DNA of 64,000 nucleotides. Source: Sphaerolaimus hirsutus (lineage: Eukaryota > Nematoda > Chromadorea > Monhysterida > Sphaerolaimidae). Location: NCBI GenBank assembly GCA_964036195.1, contig OZ038457.1, positions 20,797,147 through 20,861,146 of the forward strand. Direction: 5' to 3'. Position 1 is the stretch's first letter. Each line of letters opens with the position of its first letter. The notes below the pieces were generated by a model. That model searched no databases and had not been told where the DNA came from. It was given only the letters and a program-made list of their open reading frames with translations. The position numbers and the translations under genes are program-made. Below are positions 2,870 through 63,700 of this stretch, piece after piece.

Positions 2870-3045
2870 GGGCAGTCCCAGACCCTGTAAGATTCCCTGT
2901 AAAGTGTCAAATGTCATGCAAAGTGTCAAAATGCATGTAAAATGCCCTGTAAAATGGTAAACGTTTGCCATTTTACCGTGCATTTACATGACGCTTGACA
3001 TTTTGCATGAAATTTTACATGGCATTTTACAGGGTCTGGGACTGG
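2870..3045. mobile_element. palindromic MITE, family A
   Basis: The element runs from CAGGGGGCAGTCCCAGACCC to GGGTCTGGGACTGGCACCA, with near-complete inverted symmetry around GGTAAACGTTTGCC. It lies just downstream (on the minus strand) of the Cys-rich exon 3095-3244. Confidence 0.8.
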
Positions 3046-3094
3046 CACCAAAATATCCAAACACCACCCCAAAATACCCCCCCCCCTCCCTCAC

Positions 3095-6918
<3,824 letters not shown>

Positions 6919-7234: not shown

Positions 7235-10200
7235 CTGTTGACATATTCCTGCGTGATGTTTCTGATGATCTGTCCATGCGTCAAAATCTGCCGTTTTTTC
7301 CACTGGGTACCATCCCTGTACCGCTCATAGCTGCGTAAAAAAATCAAGCTGAAAGAGCGTTCAAAAATTGAACAAAAAAACCCGTTGCACCTGAATGCCG
7401 GTGTCTCCAAAACAAGTGCCGTATTCCGATCTCCATATTCCTCAGTATCCTTACAACTTTTTACCTCCAAACCAGCCATGAAGCAACATAGCACTTCAAC
7501 CAATCTTTGCCCCAATCCACCATCAAAATGACTGCGCCAGCCAGAAACCACCCAGGTGCCGTTTTCAATGTCCGGCAGCGTGCAGTTCGGCCCCCACTGG
7601 CAAAACTGCGATTTTCAGGTTTCGAGTTTACTGATTTAGATTTCAATTTTTGGAAAGTGACATGGCACGCAGACTGTCGCAGCATTGGCAATATGCAAAA
7701 AGAAACTCAACATAATCATTGGTCAAAAATTCTCTGGTGCCGGTTCCGCAAGTGGAAAAGTTAAGAGTAAAGAGTTAAGAGTTGAGTAAAATGATAAATG
7801 ATAAGTTAAGAGTAAAGTTAAAAGTTAAGAGTTGAGTAAAATCATTTGTCGTTTTATTCAACTCTTAACTCTTAACTTTACTCATAACTTGTCATTTGTC
7901 ATTTTACTCAACTCTTAAGTTTTAACTCTTAACTTTTCCACTTGCGGAACTGGCCCCTGGTTTGACCCAGGGTGTGATCCTAAAGGGGCTGCACACATTA
8001 GTACACCACCGAATTTGGGTAACTCAAAAATTTGTTTTGAAGACATTTGAGTTCACCAGAATGAGGATTCAGTCAACTTCTGTTGATGACGATCAAAAAT
8101 CATTGATTCTGGTAAACTCAAATGTGTACAAACCAGATTTATCAGTTTACAAAATTACGTGGTGTACTAGTGTGCATGGCCACAATATCCCAGAACTAAC
8201 ACAAGCCCTGCTCAAAGTCTGGCACTGTCCTATAAATCTGTAATCGTTCGGCTGGCCACCCCTCCCTCGCAGGGGCCACTTGTAAAGCCGCTGCAGAAAG
8301 TCCCCACTCTCGCACACGTGAAACTGCTCCGCGTAAAGCTCGGTTTGCGTCGAGCTGACCGAATCGTCGCCTGGGTGATTTTTGGGTTTGTGAAGGCGCA
8401 TTGATTTCCATTGTGGCAAAATCAGTGGCTGTTGAAAATGGATGAATGAAAATGACTGAGAAGAGCATGGCGAACGGCGATTTGATGGGCAGAACATATT
8501 TACACAAAAATGCATACTTACACGGTCTGTCTTCCACAGACTTAGGTAGATAGTGTAGGTAGTATTTTCTAGAATAAACCCCACTCGCAAATTAACCCTC
8601 CCCTTAAAATACCCCCAGCCCCAGGTCTGATTGAGCTGGGGAAACATAAGCCCCCTGGGCAGGGTTGGTTTTAGTAAAATTCATTTTACTAAAATTGTAT
8701 AAAAATTGTATTTTATTTTTGTTTTATTCTCAATTTTCCATTTTATTTTTATTATTTTCTTCAATTTTCCAATTTATTTTTATTTTGTTCTTCAATTTTC
8801 CAATTTATTTTAATTTTGTTTAATTTTCCTTTTTAGTTTGTGACCAGGATTGGTTTTAGTAACATTCTTTTTGCTAAAATTGTAGTAAAATTCTATAAAA
8901 ATTGTATTTTATTTTAATTTTATTCATGTTTCATTTTATTTACCGTATTACCTCGAAATACCCCCAGGGGTTCATTATTTCGCCAGCAAAATTTGAGGGG
9001 GGATAATTCGAGGGGGGGTTATTCGAGGGGGGGTCTATTTTTTCGCCAGAAATTTTCGGAAATGCCCCATACTCAGACGTAGAAAAATCAAACAATTACA
9101 TAGATGTGTATGTGTTTATAGGCATATAAATATAACTGTATATACACCCTTCCCTAACAACAACCCTTCCCTAACGTCACTCAATCATCAGTTTTAACGT
9201 GTGTTCTGCATTATACAGACCACAAACTGCGGTATTTGTCATGTACGTTCTCTTTACACTCAATTTTAGGGGGGTATTTCGAGGGGGGGTTATTATTTCC
9301 CCAGCCGAATTTTAGGGGGGTGGTATTTCGAGGAAGGGGGGTTAATTCTAGGGGGGCGGTTAATTCAAGGTAATACGGTATTCTTCAATTTTCTATTCAA
9401 TTTTTATTCTATTTTTCCCCTGAGATTTTGCCAACACTGCTCCTGGGTCTCTAAGAGACTAAGACACGCAATACATGCAGCGGTTGTGAATGAACGTATT
9501 GCTTCCACTGCACAATGAATCCACAGTCCACAATGCACCAACCATTTGTCCTGTATCGCTTGGAATTCTTCCTATCTTTGGGGTCATACCAGCCGTCATC
9601 TGAGTGGCTGGAATTGTGCCAACCCTCGCCGAAAACCGAATGACTCTGCGACGCTGAGTGCTTTGACATTTTGCACATGCCGTCGCTCTCGCCGCGAAGA
9701 CACCCGTAGAAGCTGGCGAATTAGTTGACAGAGTAGTTCCGGGTAATTAAAAAATTGAGTTACGCAACATGTGGCAGTCTCGGACCCTGTAGTGTCGTGT
9801 CAAATGTCATGTAATGTGTCAATCAAAATAAAAAGAAATTTACTGAACTTTTGACACTTTGCAAAAGATTTTGACACTTTACAGGGTACGGGATTGCCCC
9901 CATGTCAATTACAGTTACCTGTCGCATTTTATACTGGGACAGTCGCACACTTTGTTGGGCTCCTTAAAACGCAGCCAGTAAACATCATTCGAAGTGCACA
10001 TGCGCAGTTTAGACGAGCGCCGTTTACTTCGGCGTCCTGAAACGTAAAAAATGATGCAAAATCGAAAGAGAATCCACACGAAATAACTTACCGTCATTAT
10101 AGCGCTGCAGCAGGAATTTCTTGTCCCAATAGCAAACTCGCGCATTACCGTAACCCTGCCTGCATTTCACATATTTTAACAACCAAAACTACAGGTGCCG

Positions 10201-17200: not shown

Positions 17201-20200
17201 CTCGCCCAATTTAGTTTCCAAATCAGCAAAACGAAGACACATGTCCCTCGAATGTGATTCCGGCAATCTCTCAATGGCGTCTTCATAAATCGGCCTGGTT
17301 TGGGTCACGCCGTAACATTCGGCCGCCTTGGACAGGTAAATGTTGAAGATCTGAAAAATGGAGGGTACCGATATTTTGGTTGTGGATTTTGGAATCGCTT
17401 TTTTATAAAACTGGAGTATATAAAGAGGAGGCGATTCATACGCGAGGCGACGTAGATGTAAAACCTTATGACCGCTGCGGTTAGCCGTACAACCAAATAA
17501 CCAATAGCAACAGTTGCGTGGCAAATGTCAACTACAAATACTTCTGAAATCATCATTTCCAGATATTGTCAACTGTAAAAGAAGCACACCCACCAAACCC
17601 AGAGGGAACTCCCAGACCCTGTAAAAATCCCTGTAAAATGTCAATTGTCATGCAAAGTGTCAAAAGTCATGGAAAATGCCCTGCAAAATGGCAACCGAAT
17701 TGCCATTTTTCAGGGCATTTTCCATGACTTTTGACACTTTGCATGACATTTGACATTTTACAGAATATGGGAGTGCGCACGGAGCGACCACCTGATAACT
17801 TATACAAGCCGTAAACAGTACCGTATGCTGGTCTTCTCGCTTCTTGGAAGTTTTTATCAATTTTCTTGTTAAAAAACAACATTTCTCAACCCCTCAATCA
17901 AACCACCATACCTCGTGCATCTGCTCGGGCAGCACGGCTCTCGTAGCCCTGTTATAAATGCTCATAGCGTGTCTCGCAAGACCGTGGTTCTCTTCCAAAT
18001 TGGCATACATCAGGTAGAAATTCTTGCACAAATTAGCCGGGCACGTTTCCAAACACTGTTCAAACAAGTCGCGCGCGCGTTCTAATTTCTTGCCGCCCTG
18101 GGGAATTTGGGGATTTTTTGGGAAAAAATCTATTGGAAAAAGGGTTGATAAATGTTTGACAAACATTAGAAATAACGTACATATCGCTTGACGAATTTTA
18201 CTAGATAAGTGTTCCAGATGTCGTAAACCAGAGGCCACTTGAACAGTCCGATGCCCTTTTCGTATGCCTGCAAATTTCGTGAAGTGAATATTAACAGATT
18301 TATGAATGAAAAAAATAGCGCGCACGCCAAAAATTATCACTTCTGACGTTGAAAATGAACTCACTTTGAAAGCATCCTCAAAGAAGTTATTCTCCTCTAA
18401 AAACAGGGCGTAATTCATAATAATCTGCGGCGTAGCGATCCTCAAATCGATTATCCGATCGTAGACTTTTTTGGTCGATTCAAGCGAGCCAAAAGATTCC
18501 TCCATGTCGGCGTAAAGCGACCACACTTTGAGACTTTTGTACACACGTTTGTCCACAGATTCAGACTGCGATTGTGCGAGGGTGGGTTAATAGCAGGGTT
18601 GGTCTCGGTAAAATTCTTTTCACTATAATTGTATAAAAATTGTATTTAATTTTGTTTTATTCTTCAATTTTCCATTTTATTTATTTGTTTATATCCAGAG
18701 GTTAGAATCTAATTAACCAAACATGTTTTTGCGCTGCCTGGTTTTCATCGAACGCCCAAAAACATGTCGGGCTAATTGGCTAAATATTTCTATTTAATAA
18801 ATACCAGATGCCACTTCCAGAAACTGTAAGATGGCGTGTAAAGTTTCAAATGTTATGCAAATTGTCAAAAGTCCACATCTTAAATTACTTTTACCGGTCG
18901 TCAGACATTTTGCAGGGTCTGAGAAGAAACTACAGACGGAAACCATACCTCATCAAAATAGTGCGTCTTCTGCGGCGGGGGTGCCGTAGCGCGTTTTAAC
19001 AGCTTCACAGCACGCTCCACATTGCTGCGTTGACAAAAAAATGAGTTTTAACCACTGCAGTGGATTAGTACGATTTAGTGCATCCAACATCGACAGATTT
19101 TGACCCGCGAAGTAGTTTTTGAATAGGATACATAAAGATGATGAAAAATACCAAACGTTCTGGCGTGGAATTTTTTCCTCTCGAAATCTACGCTGTAAAA
19201 CTGTCAATCAACACAAACATAATCGCATTTCCAAACATCCAATCAAACACCAAAGAAGCAACATACTCGTGGCTGAGCTCTAACTCAGCATAGGCGCACC
19301 ACACGGCAGCCAAATCTTCCACGCGTCTGTAGGGCACCTTCAACCCTCGCTCGAACACTGTGCGCGCCTGCGATTATTGCGAGATATGATTAGTTGAATT
19401 TGGTTGAAAAACTTCACTTTAATTTAAGTTCCAAGGAATTTTCTGGTGGAAGTTCAATTCTCAGTATGGTTGAGTGGCATAAAAAGTTATATTCCCTTCT
19501 AAAGCACTGAATAAACCAATCCATTTATCTGAACCCAACTAACATCATCGAGTTGATCATTCTGCTCGTAGAATTTCGCAAAGTCGATCCACAGCGAGCA
19601 AAGTTTACCGGTGGCTTGTTTCGGGTCGACCGTTTGCACTGCTTCAGTGTAGGTCGCGATTACCTGTAATGCGGCATAGGTCAACTTTTTCGACATTTAC
19701 GGTGCCTCTAATTTTAAACAGATAAATCAGAGAAAAGATTAAAATCTTTAGAAAAGTTGATGCTTTAGAGTGTCTTACTATGGTTAGGGGATGTGCGCTT
19801 TTCGTGTCGAAAAAAGAGTAACCAGTATTTTCAAATATAAAAATACCATTTTAGGTGTCAAATCCACAAAAAATGCGACAGTCCACATCGAATATTCAGC
19901 AAAATCATAGAAACTCCCCTCTAAAACCCACCCCACCCACCTTATCAGGCTTGCCATCATACAACTGAACCCTCTTCTGCCACTCGTGCACATTGTGCGG
20001 ATTCTGTCGCAGCAGCACGCTGTTTAATAGCAGCGGCCGCCGGTCCATCAAATGCTCGAATCTGGCCAGCCGCAACTCGATTTCCAGGTCTAATTCGGCT
20101 GAGGGCCCACTTGGCGCCGAGCCAGCCAATTCCATTTTGGCGCCGAGAACGCGCTCCTCGAATTGGGCGTACGCGTCGAATACCTGTGATGGGTGGATTG

Positions 20201-28800: not shown

Positions 28801-28894
28801 CTTTCTACACGGTTTTGTCGGGCGTGTAGGGAGACGCCTGTAGGGTGTAGTGCATAACTTAAAAATATTTGTAGGGCGAATTAAATCTGGCCCC
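25881..28894. mobile_element. 3-kb inverted-repeat element, GGGGCCAGATTTAAT family
   Basis: The left end is GGGGCCAGATTTAATTC and the right end GAATTAAATCTGGCCCC. Subterminal arms carry repeated GTAGGG and CCCGAC motifs (CGACAAAACG, GGGCAGCCTCCCTACAGA). At least two other inverted-repeat structures lie inside it: about 26415-27678, with ends GGTGGAAAATATAAATGGGA and TCCCATTTATATTTGCC, and 27930-28510. No transposase frame is seen. It abuts a second family member at 28896. Confidence 0.75.
27930..28510. mobile_element. long hairpin nested in the 3-kb element
   Basis: ATTCTATGAGTATAATAAAT at 28077 is complementary to ATTTATTATACTCATAGAAT at about 28367. The complementarity continues outward through CATGGTGGCTCAG / GAACCACCATG and CACTGCCTGCCTGCC / ACAGGCAGTAGTGTG. 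Confidence 0.65.
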
Positions 28895-28895
28895 A

Positions 28896-29528
28896 GGGGC
28901 CAGATTTAATACTCCCTACAGATTTGTAGGGTAGGGCGTACACCCGACATATTTTTTAAAGTTTAGCCGCATCGACGCACATGCACCGAGAGCAAGGAGG
29001 TTCGGCAAATATACAAAACCATCCCTTAAGGTTGCCGATATTGCAATATGACATATATCACTTCGATTTTGGCCCGGAAATCACGATTTCGTCATTTCTT
29101 GGCCGTCTGCCAATTCGTTTTTTATTTTTTTCTGTCGGGCAGGTTACTCGCATAAGTCGCGCTTTTGTACGCTCGTGCATGCATTTCTTTCTTGTCGCTG
29201 CCCTCATGGTTTCGGTTGCAGACAGTGAACACTAAAAAAGTGACCACCTGACTATACAAAAGCGTGACTTATGCGAGTAACCCGCCCGACAAAATAAAAT
29301 AAAAAACGAATTGGCAGACGGCCAAGAAATGACGAAATCGTGATTTCCGGGCCAAAATCGAAGTGATATACGTCATATTGCAATATCGGCGACCTTAAGG
29401 GATAGTTTCGTGTATTTTACAAACCGCCTTGCTCTCGGTGCATGTGCGTCGATGCGGCTGAACTTTAAAAAATCTATCGGGCGTACGCCCTACCCTACAA
29501 ATCTGTAGGGAGTATTTAATCTGGCCCC
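28896..29528. mobile_element. 633-bp near-perfect fold-back element
   Basis: The element starts GGGGCCAGATTTAATACTCC and ends with its complement ATTTAATCTGGCCCC. The arms are complementary for about 300 bp, including GCACCGAGAGCAAGGAGG against CCGCCTTGCTCTCGGTGC. The centre is a short AT-rich loop near 29215-29245. It is the smallest clean member of the family and has no coding potential. Confidence 0.92.
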
Positions 29529-29615
29529 AGGCGGCCGTTCGTCGGACACTTCAAATAAATAGTAAACTACAAAAAAGCAACCACCACGAAACCCCCAGGG
29601 TCCTCCCAAACCAAC

Positions 29616-32600
29616 AGGCAACGCCTCCACACAAAAGTCACGCAAACCGATCACGGTCATGGCCACGGCCAACTCGACGCTGGGCACGAAGTAGCCGCCC
29701 TCGTAGATGGCGCACACCCTGCCCTTGGTGGACGGGACGGAGGTTTTCAATAGACGCGCAGCGTGCGCGTAGGAGAGGGGAGAGAATAGCATTTCACCCT
29801 GTGAAGGTGGGGGGGTGTTGTGTGATGATTCAATTGTCAAGAACTGCTAATGAATGATAGAGCGAAAAAGATGGCTTGTTTTGGAGGAATCGTATTGAAT
29901 GAAAGCGATGTCGCACACCAGTGCAGTATAGTGGCGCCATGGGACCGGCGTCATTTAATGGCGTCAAACGGCGTTAGCGACATGGCACCATTTTTTCTTG
30001 CACTTTTCCACCACTGTGTGATCACGCCCATCACCATTTTACATCGGATAAAGAATTGTATTGTGGAGATTGTCTTTTAGGTCACAAAATTCTTGACACC
30101 ATTCACATGCGCCACTATTTAGATCACAGGATACATCAGTAGATGCGACATACCCCCGCCCCCCGATGTAACTGCAATAAAAAGCTACTTGAGGGTCTCC
30201 AATGGCAGTGTCGTATCCAGCACTGATAAGGATCAGTTCAGGCTTAAATTCGATCGCAGCTGGCAAAATTAGGTGGTGCAAAATGAACATGAATTCAGCG
30301 TCTCCCATGCCGGTGTGATTTAGTGGCACATTTATAGTGTTTTCTGCAAAATGGAAATGATAAGTATAGATCGGATAAAATACAGGGGTCACCCGTAGAT
30401 CCTGTAAAATGCTCTGTAAACTGACGAGTGTCATACAAAGTGTAAAAAGTAATGTAAAATGTAAAGTGTAAATATCATTAAGCCATCTTCCAGGGCATTT
30501 ACATGACTTTTGACACTTTGCATGACATTTTACATTTTACAGGATCTGCAAGTGGCACCAGATTTCACTGAAACACCAAAACAAACCAGTAACATCCCAA
30601 TTGCTTTCGGGCAAGTTGGGCCAAAAAGTGCCACCGCTGAATCTATGCAAGCTGATCAGCAACAATCGCGGATCACCCTGAAATCAAGTGCTGAATCTTT
30701 ATGTGATACCCCCGCTCTTTGCTTGTTGTGTTACAAGATATCTACTGATCAGTTTGCACACTGTACAAAACGTGCGACCGTATTTTTATGAATAAACTAG
30801 AAAAATTAATTAATTACCAAATTCACCACTACTGAGAGCCAGGGACGTACGCAGCGGGGGCGGGGGGGGGGGCGCCCCCCCCCCGCCCGTTCCCGCAACG
30901 GACACAAAAATATGCCAGGAATGGCACTTCGTGAAGGGATTTTGTACCCACTTAGCAAAAATTTTGCGCGCAAGCTCGCATTTCCGCACCTCACGCTGTA
31001 TATAATTGATTTTGTCCTTCTAGACTGAAATCACCACTACAAATGCCGTCAACGCAGTGCCCGGTACCATAAATTTAACCACATGTAAGTACTATATAGT
31101 ACACGTTGGCGTTGGCGCCAATGCCAATAGGGTCATGCCAATGAATGGCGCAAGCGCCATGGCCCCATTTCGTTCCTACTGGAACAAATTTTAGGGCCCC
31201 CCGGCCCCCCCCCCCGTTCGCTGGACTGCGTATACAATCCGCCCCCCGCTCAAACATCCTGCGTACGTCCCTGATGAGAGCAATGTGATTTGATGAGAAA
31301 AAATTATATATATTTTTTATTGAAATTGGATGGTAGACTTCAATTGAGGGTCACCTCACCATAAACAAAGTAAAATTAGACGAGAAAAAACATCTCCAGC
31401 CCCACACAGTCATCCCCAAAACACCCAAGCAACAACTCACTCTAATCACATACTGAGTGCCCTGGGCAGCATGCACATCCCAGTCCACAATGAGCACACG
31501 CTCGAGCCCGAATTTGTCCACTGCCATTTTGGCACAAATGGCCACGTTGTTGAAAAAGCAAAAGCCACACGAGAGGGTTCAAACGAGATTTTGTCCCGAC
31601 GCAAGGACCTCGGTTACAAAACATGATGGAAACATGTCCGGAAAATACTAGTGGGCGCAAAGACTGGGTGTATGGCAAAGATTGGAATGATTTTATTTGT
31701 GCATCGTATCATCATCATCAAAACTCTGTGTTTGCCATCACGTCGACGGCATCACACCTGGGGGGCACTCCCAGACCCTATAAAAAGCCCTGTAAAATGT
31801 AAAATGTCATACAAAGTGTCAAAAGTCATGGAAAATGCCCTGCAAAATGGCATGAAGTTCCATGACTTTCGACACTCTGCATGACATTTAACATTTCATG
31901 GGTCTGGGAGTGGCACCTGACCAAACTGGCGCCAAGGCCCATTAAAAAACATTGCAGGAAATTACTTGAGTGAGCAAAAGCGCCAGGATCGTTCTAGAGC
32001 TACCGCTTTCAAGCGCTGTCTGAATTTGGACAGCTTTTATTCTGGGACGGTGGCGCTGTCCCTTTTTTTTGACAGGCCACCATGACCTGGCTGTTGCACA
32101 TTTGCCAACTAATAATCAGTTGGACAAATCTCGTTTGAACCCTAGGCACATGGGCGGTCGGCGCTCGCGTGGTGCCCCGGCGGTCGGATGAGTGCAAATG
32201 ACGTTTTGCAGGTGCCCTACACGGATGGACTATTGTAAATATTGTGATTTGATCTAAATTTCGTAACGCCGCATCTGGTGGTGTAAAGGCTAGGTGCTGT
32301 AAACCCAGTGCTAGACACAACAACGGTGCTGGTGCGGTGCCTTTTCAATTTTCAGTGGTGGACTACCGGCGCCGGTGCCGTGCCCTTTTTTGCCGGTACC
32401 CCAAAGTGCCAGGTGCCCTTTCTAAGGGATGCCGCCACGAGGTGCCGGTTCAGTGCGGTGCCATATTCCCGGTGCCTTTAACATCACTAGTCGCATCACA
32501 AAATGCATGACACATTCTGACACAAGTCAACAAATTCAAGCCGAGCTCAAACGAACATTCAGAACAGAGGCGCAGGCTTCAATAGCACAGCCAGCGCTAA

Positions 32601-37660: not shown

Positions 37661-40195
37661 TTAGGCATCGATAATAAGATTCCTAACTTCCTCTAAAAAT
37701 TCTATATTTAAATCTTTCTGAAGGTACCAAATTAAATCTCTATATTTGGTGCTGCATCTAATAGCTGTTTCGAAAAGAACGTCCACAGGGTAACCATTTT
37801 GTTTGTGCCCTCTAATTATTGGCAAAATTCCAAAGCAAAATTTTACCCAATGCGAGCTGAGTCGCATTCCTCTGAGCCAATGACCAAAAAAGCTACCCCG
37901 TTTTACTTGTTCAGCTTGTCCTGTCGTGTAATTGGTCGCTGTTATGCAATGGAATTTGAAGTCCAATCGCTTGTCATAAAGTTGCCACGTTTGTTCTTGA
38001 AAATCCATTGTAATGTCTAAAAAGTCTGTATTGGAGGTTGTGCGGTGTGTGCGATTTATAGGTAAATTAGAGGGATAAATCTCTTCAATAATTTTACACG
38101 GGTCTATCTGCTCTCTACTATCGTAGCATAAAAGTAAATCGTCAATATAGCGGAAACACCTAAGCATTTTCGCAGTTGTTCCTCTGTTTTTAATTGCCCA
38201 TTCAAATTCGCGATTCATCAGACTGGCACAAGCAAGGCTGGGTGCTGAACTACACCCCATGGGCAACCCTGAAGTTTGATGAAAAAGCTGTCCAGCAAAA
38301 ATAAGGAACGAATTTTTTAACACGGTTCTGACCAGATGGTCTACTTCAAAAGCGTCAAAGCCAAGCTGCGGGGAAGTGAAATTATCAGCATACCAACATC
38401 TACTCCATCCAAGCACAACAAATTTCTTTTTAGCATTATTTAAGCATCTTCTAGTAAGCTTACCAATGTCTCTTATTATCAGTTCATGCTCCATGTTAGG
38501 GTAGAGCGTACTGAAATCTCCGCAGTAACATTTAGCTGTCTTATTCTCCATTTTTAAAGCATCACAGAATTTTGCCACTTCCAATGATGATTCACAAGGC
38601 CAATATGGTGAAAAAGATGTTGTGCCAGAACCTGCGAAGCTGAAACAATATCGTTGCATGTGCTCTTTAAAATGTCTTAAAATTCGATGAAGGACTATGG
38701 CCGCTTTTTTAATTGGTGCTTTACTACCCCCACTTATATAGCGAAATTTCATCGGGTTTTTGTGCATTTTAGGGATTGGAAAAAGACGCGGCACTTCTTG
38801 CCAATCGCTTTTTGGTTCCAGGCCAAGGTTTCTAATTATGATATTTTGCCCATTTATGACATCAATTTCAGTACCGTTCACTGGCTTATAGGTAGAATTT
38901 CCTTTGAACACAAGTTTGTCATGCACTTTACTAATTCCTAATTCTTTACAGATTTGCTCTGCCGCAAAACGTTTGCACATAACAATTAAATTGCTAGTAG
39001 CTTTATCCGCTGGGGCAAAAACAAACTTACTTTGCAGATTCCGTGCTTTTGATATGATGTCTTCTTTACTGTATAAATCAATGGGTGGTGGTATCCAGTT
39101 TTTACATCTTTTTGAAATGTAGTCCACCATCATATGTCGCATTTCAGTCTTCTTGTCACAGGCCATTTTATCTGCGATTCTGTCAACAAGATCTGTAAGT
39201 AAAATTTCACAGGAGTCAATGGAAAAGGATTCTGCGTAGCGAAATTTTGCACCGGATCGTAAAAATTTTTTTAAATTAACGTTTCCGATAACCGAGAGAT
39301 CACCGGTGACAATGTGATTGTGAAAAGTGTCTATGTAGGGAGAATTAGCACAGTCACACGAAAAAGATAGTAAATCTATAATTTCTTGTTCAGTGCAATT
39401 TTTAAATATTTTGTTATGGTTACACAGGTGATTAGACAGGGGCGACTCATATTTATAGCTAACTATAAACTTATTGTTTTTCAACCAATCTGCACCAATA
39501 TTGTCACAGAAGCGCTTACTGTTTAAAAGTTTGCTGGGTCTAATAACGTCCATAATTGGACCTGGGAAAAGAACCGAGTAAAAATTCTTCTTACGATTGT
39601 CTAATTTAAGGGGTTCCACAGGTCTGAGCTTACTTGTCAAAAAGCCAGTCACCGCTAACGCAACAGAAGTCGAAAAGTCACACAAACTTCGATGAACCTT
39701 ACCAATATTTTCATGAAGGAGACGCAGTTCCTGTTTCGTACAACTTCTCAGTTTGCCCAGAGTGCTTCTAAAGTTGCTGGAGCTGACGTTTCCATCTAGC
39801 AGTTGACCAATGAGTTCATTGAGTTGGCGTGTTGCGCGCTTCTTGCCTTTTGTGCGAATTCTATCTGTGTGTTGTCTGGGGAGGGGTCGTGAAAAATATG
39901 GACAGTTTTCAAATTTCGGGAGACAAGTTTTTTCAATATTCCCATACCCTGCAATTCTAGTATTTAAACCAAAGGGCCACGCTGTATTTAAATAAAGGCA
40001 CCATTCTTTTTCAGCTTGTAAAAGCTCTTTTTCATCATAAATTCCCAGAGCTTGAAAAGTAGGATTTTTTCCGCATTGATGAAAATGTTTTACAACTTCT
40101 GTTTTTAAAGTTCCTTTTTGGAAAGAGCGTAAATGTTCCAGTGCCCTATCTTTAAAAGCTCTTTTTGTTTCCCCAACGTAGCTAATTTTACAATC
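37661..40195 (-). CDS. Naiad-type Penelope-like retroelement polyprotein, 5'-truncated
   Basis: One open frame of 844 codons. From N to C: the second half of a GIY-YIG endonuclease (CKISYVGETKR at about 40165-40190, followed by EHL and HFHQCG, fitting the Cys/His pattern of Penelope-like endonucleases), a linker, the motif FSCDCANSPYIDTFHNHIVT with its CxC signature (about 39300-39360), then reverse transcriptase with motif A GDFSTLYPNME (38490-38535), motif B SGLPMGCSSAPS (38230-38280) and the catalytic YIDD (38128-38145). Endonuclease before RT is the permuted order described for the Naiad/Chlamys clade of Penelope-like elements. The GIY half is missing: the frame meets a stop exactly where the right 546-bp repeat begins, so this copy is dead on arrival at its 5' end. 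The rest of the frame is intact, implying a young insertion. Confidence 0.92.
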   Translation of the reverse strand, partial: DCKISYVGETKRAFKDRALEHLRSFQKGTLKTEVVKHFHQCGKNPTFQALGIYDEKELLQAEKEWCLYLNTAWPFGLNTRIAGYGNIEKTCLPKFENCPYFSRPLPRQHTDRIRTKGKKRATRQLNELIGQLLDGNVSSSNFRSTLGKLRSCTKQELRLLHENIGKVHRSLCDFSTSVALAVTGFLTSKLRPVEPLKLDNRKKNFYSVLFPGPIMDVIRPSKLLNSKRFCDNIGADWLKNNKFIVSYKYESPLSNHLCNHNKIFKNCTEQEIIDLLSFSCDCANSPYIDTFHNHIVTGDLSVIGNVNLKKFLRSGAKFRYAESFSIDSCEILLTDLVDRIADKMACDKKTEMRHMMVDYISKRCKNWIPPPIDLYSKEDIISKARNLQSKFVFAPADKATSNLIVMCKRFAAEQICKELGISKVHDKLVFKGNSTYKPVNGTEIDVINGQNIIIRNLGLEPKSDWQEVPRLFPIPKMHKNPMKFRYISGGSKAPIKKAAIVLHRILRHFKEHMQRYCFSFAGSGTTSFSPYWPCESSLEVAKFCDALKMENKTAKCYCGDFSTLYPNMEHELIIRDIGKLTRRCLNNAKKKFVVLGWSRCWYADNFTSPQLGFDAFEVDHLVRTVLKNSFLIFAGQLFHQTSGLPMGCSSAPSLACASLMNREFEWAIKNRGTTAKMLRCFRYIDDLLLCYDSREQIDPCKIIEEIYPSNLPINRTHRTTSNTDFLDITMDFQEQTWQLYDKRLDFKFHCITATNYTTGQAEQVKRGSFFGHWLRGMRLSSHWVKFCFGILPIIRGHKQNGYPVDVLFETAIRCSTKYRDLIWYLQKDLNIEFLEEVRNLIIDA

Positions 40196-56049: not shown

Positions 56050-56575
56050 GTCACAAACAAAAAAGCCACAATGTACAGGGTGCGGCAGTTTAGACGGACC
56101 CCATAAAGTTTTAAATAACTTGTCACTGGGTAGTCGGATTAACGTCAAATTTTAGGTCAACATCAACAACTACACAGGAAAGGAGCCCTGAAAATATGGC
56201 TGCGATAGCTCTGCTCGTTCTCAAGTTATTTATGTAAACACAAAAAATTTCGCTTTACTGCCACCTTGCTTTATAACCAAACACGCAAGCGTCTGCAGAT
56301 TTCCTTATCTTAAAACAATCCCAATCACGATCTGGGTCCCAAAAAGTGGATCCCGTTTGAAACCTATCACCGGGTGGTGGTAAAGTGACAATTACGCGTT
56401 TGCATGAATAACTTGAGAACGAGGAGAGCTATCGCAGCCATATTTGCAGGGCTTCTTTCCTATTTAGTTGTAAATGTCGACCTAAAATTTGACGTTAATC
56501 CGACTACCCAGTGACAAGTTATTTAAAACTTTATGGGGTCCGTCTAAATTGCCGCACCCTGTATAACCCACAACT
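56050..56575. mobile_element. large inverted repeat with GGGTGCGGCAGTTTAGACGG ends
   Basis: ACAGGGTGCGGCAGTTTAGA at about 56077 is complementary to TCTAAATTGCCGCACCCTGT near 56545. The complementarity continues inward through GACCCCATAAAGTTTTAAAT and its partner to about 56240/56395. This is another palindromic element of about 485 bp, and TATA flanks the outer right end. Confidence 0.85.
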
Positions 56576-60700: not shown

Positions 60701-63700
60701 TAGCAAGAAATGTGATATGTCCGTCATGGACAGCTACTTCTAAAAGTCGACAAGTCCATAAATTGCCCATAAGGGAGAATCATCCAGGCCAGGAACAAAA
60801 ATGTTTGTTAGTGCAAGAAGTCGACAAGTCCATTTCCCTCCCCAAAACAGTTTTGCTCTGTCCAAATGGAATTTTATGGACACCCCATTTTTTACGTTGA
60901 GAGAAGGAGCTGAAAATTTGATACTTTATTGTCAACATTTGGAACTTAATGGTAGGCGCGAGAGAGCCAAATTGGACACGCGGGATGAACCTGGAATCGG
61001 ATCGGAAACTTAAAATGCGATTTACTCTACATCGCATTTTGTGGACTTGTCGACTTGTAGAAGTAGACGCCTCAATTCCAATTTTTCTAGCATCTATTCA
61101 CTAGGTATTTTGTGACTTTGCACGCATGCATGCGTAGGGTTGGAAAAATAACGTTTTTTTAAACTCTATGTTTAAAAAAACAACGTTTTTTTAATAAAAA
61201 AAACGTTCTTTTTCAAAGTTCCCAGATATGACCTTGTGTCAACATATATAGGTATATCAGACAGTGGCAATACTCTGTGATGTTATATATGACCATATAA
61301 TGTCTGTGGAGCCATGGGATAGCATTATAAGTGGTGATTTGTATCAAAAATATCCATTTTTCGTCGACATATCGTTCGTATATCGCCTTATAGTCGAATG
61401 TTCGTGACTTCAGCTAAAGTTTGGCACGGAATAGTGATGAAACAAGGTTATAAAAGGAGGTTGTTACTTTGGGAGTGAAGTTACACACAGTGGTGGTACA
61501 TGGAAGCACATTACCTCAATATTATATACTACAGCAACATATGACGGCTTATTAACCCATGGTAGCACATAGAAATGGATACTTTGATACTAAAAATGCC
61601 ACAAAACCAATGAAAACAACCACCAATGTCAATTTGTGTGTGAAATTGCGCGTCATGTCATTTCGGACGTCATGTTTTCGTGTGTGAATTTCGGACGTCA
61701 TGTTTTGTTTTTTTAAAGGTTTTTTTATTTAAAAAACGTTTTTAAAAAAACATCGGCCAACCCTATGCATGCATTTCTACATGCTAATTTACGGTGGGTT
61801 TTTTATTATTGGTTTAGTGTTTTTCAGTGGCAACCTTACATTTTCTGCATGAAAAATCAAGCAGCCGTGAAAAACTTATCTTCATTCCACGTTCCGCAAA
61901 TGGAATAAGCCATAATTCAACCCCGCGCAGGCAACATCGGCGCGGGTCGCTTCCAGTCGTCCAGCACGATGCCGATGCCGCCGAGGCGCAACAACCAGGA
62001 CAACCAGAACCAGCCAGACAGGGGGCGCCCAAACATTCTCCTCTCACAACCCCCCAATGCGACCAGCGAGCGATCCCCATCTGGTGCCACTCCCATACCC
62101 TGTAAAGAGCCCTGTAAAATGTCATGCAAAGTGTCTCAAGTCATGTAAAATGCCCTGCAAAATGGCAACTCGGTTGCCATTATGCTGGGCATTTTACATG
62201 ACTTTAGACACTTTGTATGACATTTGACATTTTACAGGGCTCTTTACAGGATCTGGGAGTGCCCCCAGGGGAGAACGTGGCTTTGCGCCGCCGGCTGGCT
62301 ACCTATGTGCCAACGGACCAGCCCGTGAATGAAATGTGCTACAGGGCCGTGGTGGCTGGTGATATGTTCCACAGGCTCACCAATGAGATCAGTGTGAGTG
62401 TCGTTTGATTGTGTGGTTTTTGGGTACGGGGCACTGTGCATTTTGTCCTGTTGTTTTAGTTTTTGCGAATAGGTTTTTAAGGGTACTTGTGTTGAAAAAT
62501 GTGAGAAGTTTAATTTAAATTTTAAATCAAAATAAATGTATAAAAAATTTATTAGAAATATAATTTTCAAACCCATTGGTGATCTGCTCTTCTATAGGAG
62601 ATATGCTATTCAAATATTTGAAACAAACATCATTTCTCATCAAATGTTTATCGTTCAAAACTGATAATCATGTACCTTTATTCAAAACTCAGGTGCGGTG
62701 CGAGTCTGTCGGTCGAAATGAAACCATGGACCCTGAAAACTCACAATGGAGCAATTTAGAGCCCAGAACGGACGCAAAAACGATTGAACAGCTGCAGGGG
62801 CTCAACCCCAAGCTCAAGGATATTCTGCTGAGGGTAATGTTAATTGAACACATGACTGCCGCTCAGCAGCATGCCATTCCCTTGATTATGGCTGGGAAAG
62901 AGGTTTTGCTGAGAGCTGAGACCGGTTCGGGAAAAACGGTTTGTTATACTTCGTTTCTTCCGCAAGAAGCGATGTAGAATGATAACCAGTGTACTGTTAT
63001 TTATGTGTGATGCATGAAAAACCTGGAAGTTGGCTACCGTATTTCTTCTAATAGAAGCGCGTCGTTCTATTGTTTCGTAAACTTTTTTACCTGCCGTTCT
63101 ATTGCAGGTGCCGTTCTATAGGAGGCTGACGTTCTATTTCTTTCACCAATTTTTTACACTCATTTTTTATATGAACATATTATTCATTACGTTCATTTAG
63201 AATAAAACATGCGAAATATTTCATTATCAGAGCAACAATCTGAAATATAACATTTAAATGTTTTGAACGTTCATTTACGTTGTCATGTTTTTGTGTTTTA
63301 CACTATCCCAGTGCAATTTCTATCTGCCGTTCTATTGGAGGTGCCGTTCGAGTGGAGGTATGCCGTTCTGTTAGGAGAAATACGGTATTTTCATTTTTGA
63401 AAGTAATAAGTTTATTGTATCTGCTGTGTGAATCACATTTCATCGGGCATTTGCAATTTTGTTGGCGGAAATTGCATGTTCTTGCCAGGAGTCTGGTGGA
63501 GGGGCGGGGCAGCGTAAACTTTAAAACGCGATTTTGAATATTCAGAATTTATTGATACGTGCACTTTTAAAATGAAACACTTCAATTAAGCATATACCCT
63601 ACTTTCAGCTCGCATACCTGGTGCCCATAGTAGACTGGCTGCTCAATAACGCTGGCGACATTCCCGAAAACAGCAAGCAAATTTCCCAATCCGAGCCCAA

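Follow-up and report, generated by a model that had tools for sequence, protein, structure and literature searches.

The locus studied here raises the question of how an intron can coincide from end to end with a palindromic transposable element. In the window, by which the whole analysed stretch of 64,000 nucleotides is meant, a DEAD-box (Vasa/DDX3-like) helicase gene is interrupted by a putative intron that consists entirely of one element, of a repeat called family A here, plus one copy of its target site, nothing of an older intron being left. This intron is very probably an introner, i.e. a palindromic MITE (a non-autonomous DNA transposon) that landed in a coding exon and is spliced out as an intron; both the splicing of the element and the gain of the intron are deduced from sequence. 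An introner-like origin had been proposed in the initial annotation, and its main support comes from other copies in the genome, the helicase copy itself contributing less.

All features of the helicase locus lie on the + strand. The coding part of exon 1 extends from the first in-frame ATG to the element (61969..62083; open frame, gene named from the downstream exons), and its final three nucleotides (CTG, 62081..62083) are the left target-site copy, a 3-bp CWG duplication being known in family A. The element itself (62084..62265), recognised by its inverted repeats and its genomic copies, begins with GTGCC and ends with GCCCC. It is followed by the right target-site copy (CAG, 62266..62268), whose middle base is not that of the left copy and which, judged from the sequence and the family pattern, would supply the 3' splice site. 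Element and right copy together form the putative spliceosomal intron of 185 nt (62084..62268, GT...AG), with an open frame across the junction; the unlike triplets on its two sides still leave GT...AG. Exon 2 (62269..62393), read from the sequence with the frame kept, is followed by GTGAGT, and exon 3 (62693..62938, limits by eye) carries the ATP-binding motif GSGKT and a match to PF00270 (DEAD). The layout is thus exon ...CCATCTG, then GTGCCACTCCC...GGGAGTGCCCCCAG, then GGGAGAACG... in the following exon. Vasa- and DDX3-type helicases are included in the best PDB matches of the gene.

The earlier claim that the intron runs from terminus to terminus of the palindrome holds in substance, with a corrected start: the GT is located at 62084, and the proposed start at 62094 lies 10 nt inside the element. 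One end of the element does provide the GT, and the intron ends with CCCCCAG, as had been described. The flanking exons are likewise in frame, since the open frame from the ATG at 61969 continues into exon 2 once 62084-62268 is removed (...SERSPSG^ENVALRRR..., with ^ marking a junction here and below); if the stretch stays in, the same frame runs into a stop codon inside the element. Two sets of palindrome arms, 62113-62169/62173-62229 and 62081-62124/62225-62268, are both 91% complementary, and the predicted RNA fold of the 185-nt stretch has an energy of -124.5 kcal/mol (z -19.5), with none of 200 shuffled sequences equally stable. The junction is situated in the N-terminal stretch of the protein, upstream of the Pfam match, so that the evidence at this place consists of the open frame, the GT/AG ends and the pattern of the family. 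A genome search with the helicase query for an intron-less paralogue returned only the gene's own two exons.

The family was followed through the 348-Mb assembly (762 contigs). Its 20-nt end CTGGGGGCACTCCCAGATCC gave 3,149 matches with at most two mismatches in the 348 Mb, against one for the reversed control, and its two end sequences are GTGCCACTCCC and GGGGCACTCCC. Exact patterns for both ends revealed 95 copies of the type GTGCC/GGGGC, three places with GT/GT and one with GGGG/GGGG; the asymmetry of the ends thus belongs to family A as such. Seventy of the 95 copies (30 + 40 loci) were retrieved, without regard to their flanks, and 65 were left once near-duplicate flanks had been removed; the 25 outside the sample include seven apparent duplicates or copies already included. 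The majority sequence of the 65 copies is 189 nt long and 97% self-complementary; the median divergence is 6%. No match to the exact 20-mer CACTCCCAGACCCTGTAAAA was found in a viral contig collection.

The three base pairs on the two sides of the element were identical in 40 of the 65 copies (CAG/CAG 21, CTG/CTG 14, CAT/CAT 4, CCG/CCG 1), which gives a CWG duplication, CAG/CAG or CTG/CTG, in 35 of 65. Unlike triplets were present in the other 25 (CTG/CAG 7, CAG/CTG 2, mixed 16). The triplet was preceded by C in 34 and followed by G in 33 of the 65 copies, pointing to a CCWGG-like target. A strong excess of CTG/CAG over CAG/CTG (16 to 2) was discarded, because loci L009-L038 had been picked with a pattern containing the right CAG; the 65 copies free of this bias give 7 to 2 (p 0.18). 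The 14 CTG/CTG copies end without AG. Compared with the initial annotation, two elements of the explanation are new: the CWG duplication, whose CAG copy would give the 3' splice site, and the asymmetric ends, only one of which carries GT.

The mechanism that we propose starts from what the sequences show: the element enters a CWG triplet, frequently one inside CCWGG, and duplicates the 3 bp, and one of its ends begins with GTGCC, the other with GGGGC. With CAG as the exonic target and the GTGCC end upstream, the product reads exon-CAG^GTGCC...GCCCCCAG^exon. The first CAG would be kept in the exon, and the spliceosome would use a GT donor from the element and an AG acceptor from the duplicated CAG; as the two signals are divided in this way, removal would restore the old coding sequence exactly. 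The long hairpin may in addition bring both splice sites together in the RNA and so help splicing. Weighing against this reading are the AGs that occur earlier in the element, the CTG/CTG copies, which end without AG and of which one (L028) nevertheless sits in a conserved domain, and the unlike triplets of the helicase copy.

For 99 insertions with both ends recognisable (near-duplicates dropped), the GC content of the flanks was 0.52 beside the element and about 0.39 by some 190 nt on each side, a peak as expected for a small exon. Flanks with a GC content of at least 0.48 were found in 39 of the 65 copies, compared with 27% of 1,808 CWG sites and 37% of 83 CCWGG sites of the window. Stops in all three frames were carried by 91 of the 99 copies. 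For 64 of the 99 insertions, belonging to the three main target classes (19 from L001-L038 and 45 from later loci), the flanks were rejoined, and their longest open frame was translated and compared with Pfam. At E<=0.001, a match was obtained for 13 of 64 peptides in the sense direction and for 1 of 64 in antisense (Fisher p 0.001); the remaining 51 sense peptides gave no match. As the copies were sampled for intact ends, which would be preserved by splicing, and in 19 of the 64 cases the locus had been picked with the right CAG in the query or pattern, the share of introns found here is not the share among all copies. The length of the open frames is by itself a weak test of coding direction: for CAG/CAG the mean was 110 aa in sense, 92 in antisense and 68 after shuffling, for CTG/CAG it hardly differed between sense (104) and antisense (102), and for CTG/CTG it was 91 in sense and 80 in antisense.

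The Pfam search lists families and not their members, and nine of the 13 families were placed on loci by single scans or PDB matches (trypsin, Munc13, innexin, acetyl-CoA carboxylase, carnitine acyltransferase, chondroitin transferase, COMM, lustrin and MFS). PS decarboxylase was placed by PDB alignment, and Oscp1, KxDL and the sodium:sulfate symporter were placed by reading the peptides, a match over the junction not being seen for these three. With families assigned to loci by us, the positive insertions comprise 9 of 31 for CAG/CAG, 3 of 16 for CTG/CAG and 1 of 17 for CTG/CTG; the depletion of CTG/CTG under this assignment (1/17 vs 12/47) is not significant (p 0.16). The single CTG/CTG case, L028, sits in sense direction inside a conserved chondroitin-transferase domain. 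Four CTG/CTG copies (L028, L047, L053 and L094) lie in sense direction in coding-looking sequence with no AG at the element end, L028 being the only one of them with a Pfam match. The only antisense match, GDT1, was assigned by reading to L031, where the copy appears to lie within an intron, some 55 nt upstream of an apparent acceptor.

At the 13 positive loci, as assigned, the intron would be in phase 0 in six cases, in phase 1 in one and in phase 2 in six. PDB alignments of the rejoined peptides were gap-free at the junction in six out of six proteins (Munc13, chymotrypsin C, innexin-6, PS decarboxylase, carnitine octanoyltransferase and acetyl-CoA carboxylase); the alignment of carnitine octanoyltransferase has one gap, away from the junction. 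Gap-free junctions and the occurrence of all three phases are to be expected if the element enters an exon that was not interrupted before and is then removed exactly.

Within the window, BLAST at E<=1e-3 found 13 other places with family A sequence, fragments included, in agreement with the dozen or more copies counted before. Many of these had been said to lie in or beside introns. Five of the 13 were viewed with 150 nt of flank. Judged by eye, three of them seem to be contained in larger introns: one at 2871-3047, one at 17603-17780 (or 17604-17780) in an intron of an SYF1-like gene and one at 30388-30558 (or 30385-30561) in an intron of a histone-deacetylase-like gene, the latter two not being end to end with the intron. 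In none of the five were exons seen to meet both ends of the element, and no second end-to-end intron was found among them. The window also contains other long inverted repeats, at 28893-29531, 3892-4652, 56074-56563 and 7736-7957 (arms of 277, 217, 166 and 106 nt, more than 90% complementary), which are probably other palindromic elements. An open frame of 844 aa at 37661-40195 (-), with the Pfam domains reverse transcriptase and GIY-YIG in its relatives and 29% identity to its best database relative, is probably a Penelope-like element.

Copies inside larger introns, as seen in three of the five window copies and at L031 (all by eye), would be expected if the element had entered a pre-existing intron later and had filled or replaced it. 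For the helicase intron we hold this to be improbable, as no older-intron sequence is found between element and exon, either there or in the nine Pfam-positive copies viewed, most of the flanking triplets represent a target-site duplication, and the GC content of the flanks is highest at the insertion point. Still less probable is an ordinary MITE whose insertions into exons are disabling or are assembly artefacts, with the terminal GT and AG arising as a coincidence of the CWG target. The CTG/CTG copies in coding exons do represent insertions with no evident splice solution; against such a coincidence stand the 13 to 1 bias toward the GT-to-AG direction, the many different conserved genes that are hit and the asymmetric ends of 95 copies.

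Unlikely, and the least so among the alternatives, is an introner with an acceptor at an internal AG, in GGGAG or TTTACAG, in which case a few element codons would stay in the mRNA. Of the 65 copies, 62 contain TTTACAG and every one contains GGGAG, which the search pattern required. Use of GGGAG^TGCCCC together with the triplet would add 9 nt and keep the frame, and from the sequence it would also suit some CTG/CTG copies. L028, however, has no GGGAG, and only the terminal CAG leaves no extra residue, with six of six alignments that assume it gap-free at the junction; since the joined peptides were built on the terminal CAG, these alignments demonstrate consistency and not proof.

Regarding the origin of family A, two of its characters, the CWG target and a second end that starts with GGG, agree with NuwaI, a group within the PIF/Harbinger-like (PHIS) transposons. 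In the part of the 2015 PHIS survey used here, NuwaI is defined by CWG duplications, has inverted repeats that usually start with GGG and was found only in animals (PMC4482050). The CWG target-site duplication is common to NuwaI and family A, and the GGGGC end fits the GGG rule; the GTGCC end differs from it, in 95 copies. That part of the survey does not describe NuwaI elements as introns, unlike the reading of family A given here (PMC4482050). The GTG start of the first end may represent a change from the NuwaI type that created a 5' splice site. At least 163 matches to PF13359 (PIF/Harbinger-type transposase) are present in the genome; most of those listed have several internal TGA and take about 630 nt to cover 147 domain positions, which probably reflects short introns. 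In the two transposase loci that were read (L114 and L115), no family A end was found within 3.6 kb each, and the one readable end in each starts with GGCCCCACGC; a NuwaI transposase with family A ends was not found in these two loci. Innexin and Munc13 genes are among those with insertions, which, given the distribution of these genes, suggests an animal host. From its sequence characters, family A is probably NuwaI-derived.

The introners of Micromonas and Aureococcus are MITE-like and make introns with a duplicated target, as proposed here for family A, and differ from it in their algal hosts, their sequences and their duplication lengths. Introners as treated by Gozashti et al. (2022), in the part of that paper drawn upon, are dispersed similar introns whose similarity reaches near the splice sites, some families having terminal inverted repeats and target-site duplications (PMC9860276). 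In family A, the GT forms the start of the element and a single triplet separates its other end from the exon, and 95 copies share these ends. The introners of Chrysochromulina are described in the same part as having their own 5' splice site and taking the 3' one from the duplication (PMC9860276), which is the arrangement proposed for family A; their duplication is 4 bp long and inverted repeats are not evident in them, whereas family A has a palindrome, a 3-bp CWG duplication and a single GT end. Introners with inverted repeats and target duplications, including the type with its own 5' and a borrowed 3' site, are thus already known, going by that part of the source (PMC9860276). A literature search, judged from its listings, found no work joining NuwaI or Harbinger to introners or intron gain. 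Reportedly, there is also a larger introner survey of 2025, which may already include family A.

A more specific reading has about an even chance of being correct: a NuwaI-type MITE, by a change of one end from GGG to GTG, would have become a one-sided intron maker on a CWG target that already resembles a splice junction (CAG^GT...CAG^), and would have given rise to many hundreds of introns in one animal genome. Copies in CTG would be accommodated by a second route: the T of the right triplet changed to A, an AG inside the element was used with three codons added, or the acceptor is not an AG. We estimate that family A is the source of several hundred or more introns here, if many of the intact copies are introns.

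The origin of new introns is a long-standing question. One large survey shows introners to be rare in animals: in the part considered here, among animals and land plants they occur in only two groups, both of them animals (PMC9860276). Family A offers an anatomy that can be tested: one end bears the donor, the target triplet would supply the acceptor, and conserved genes have received many insertions, from which their pre-insertion sequence would be recoverable exactly. It would also link a named type of transposon, NuwaI, to the gain of introns.
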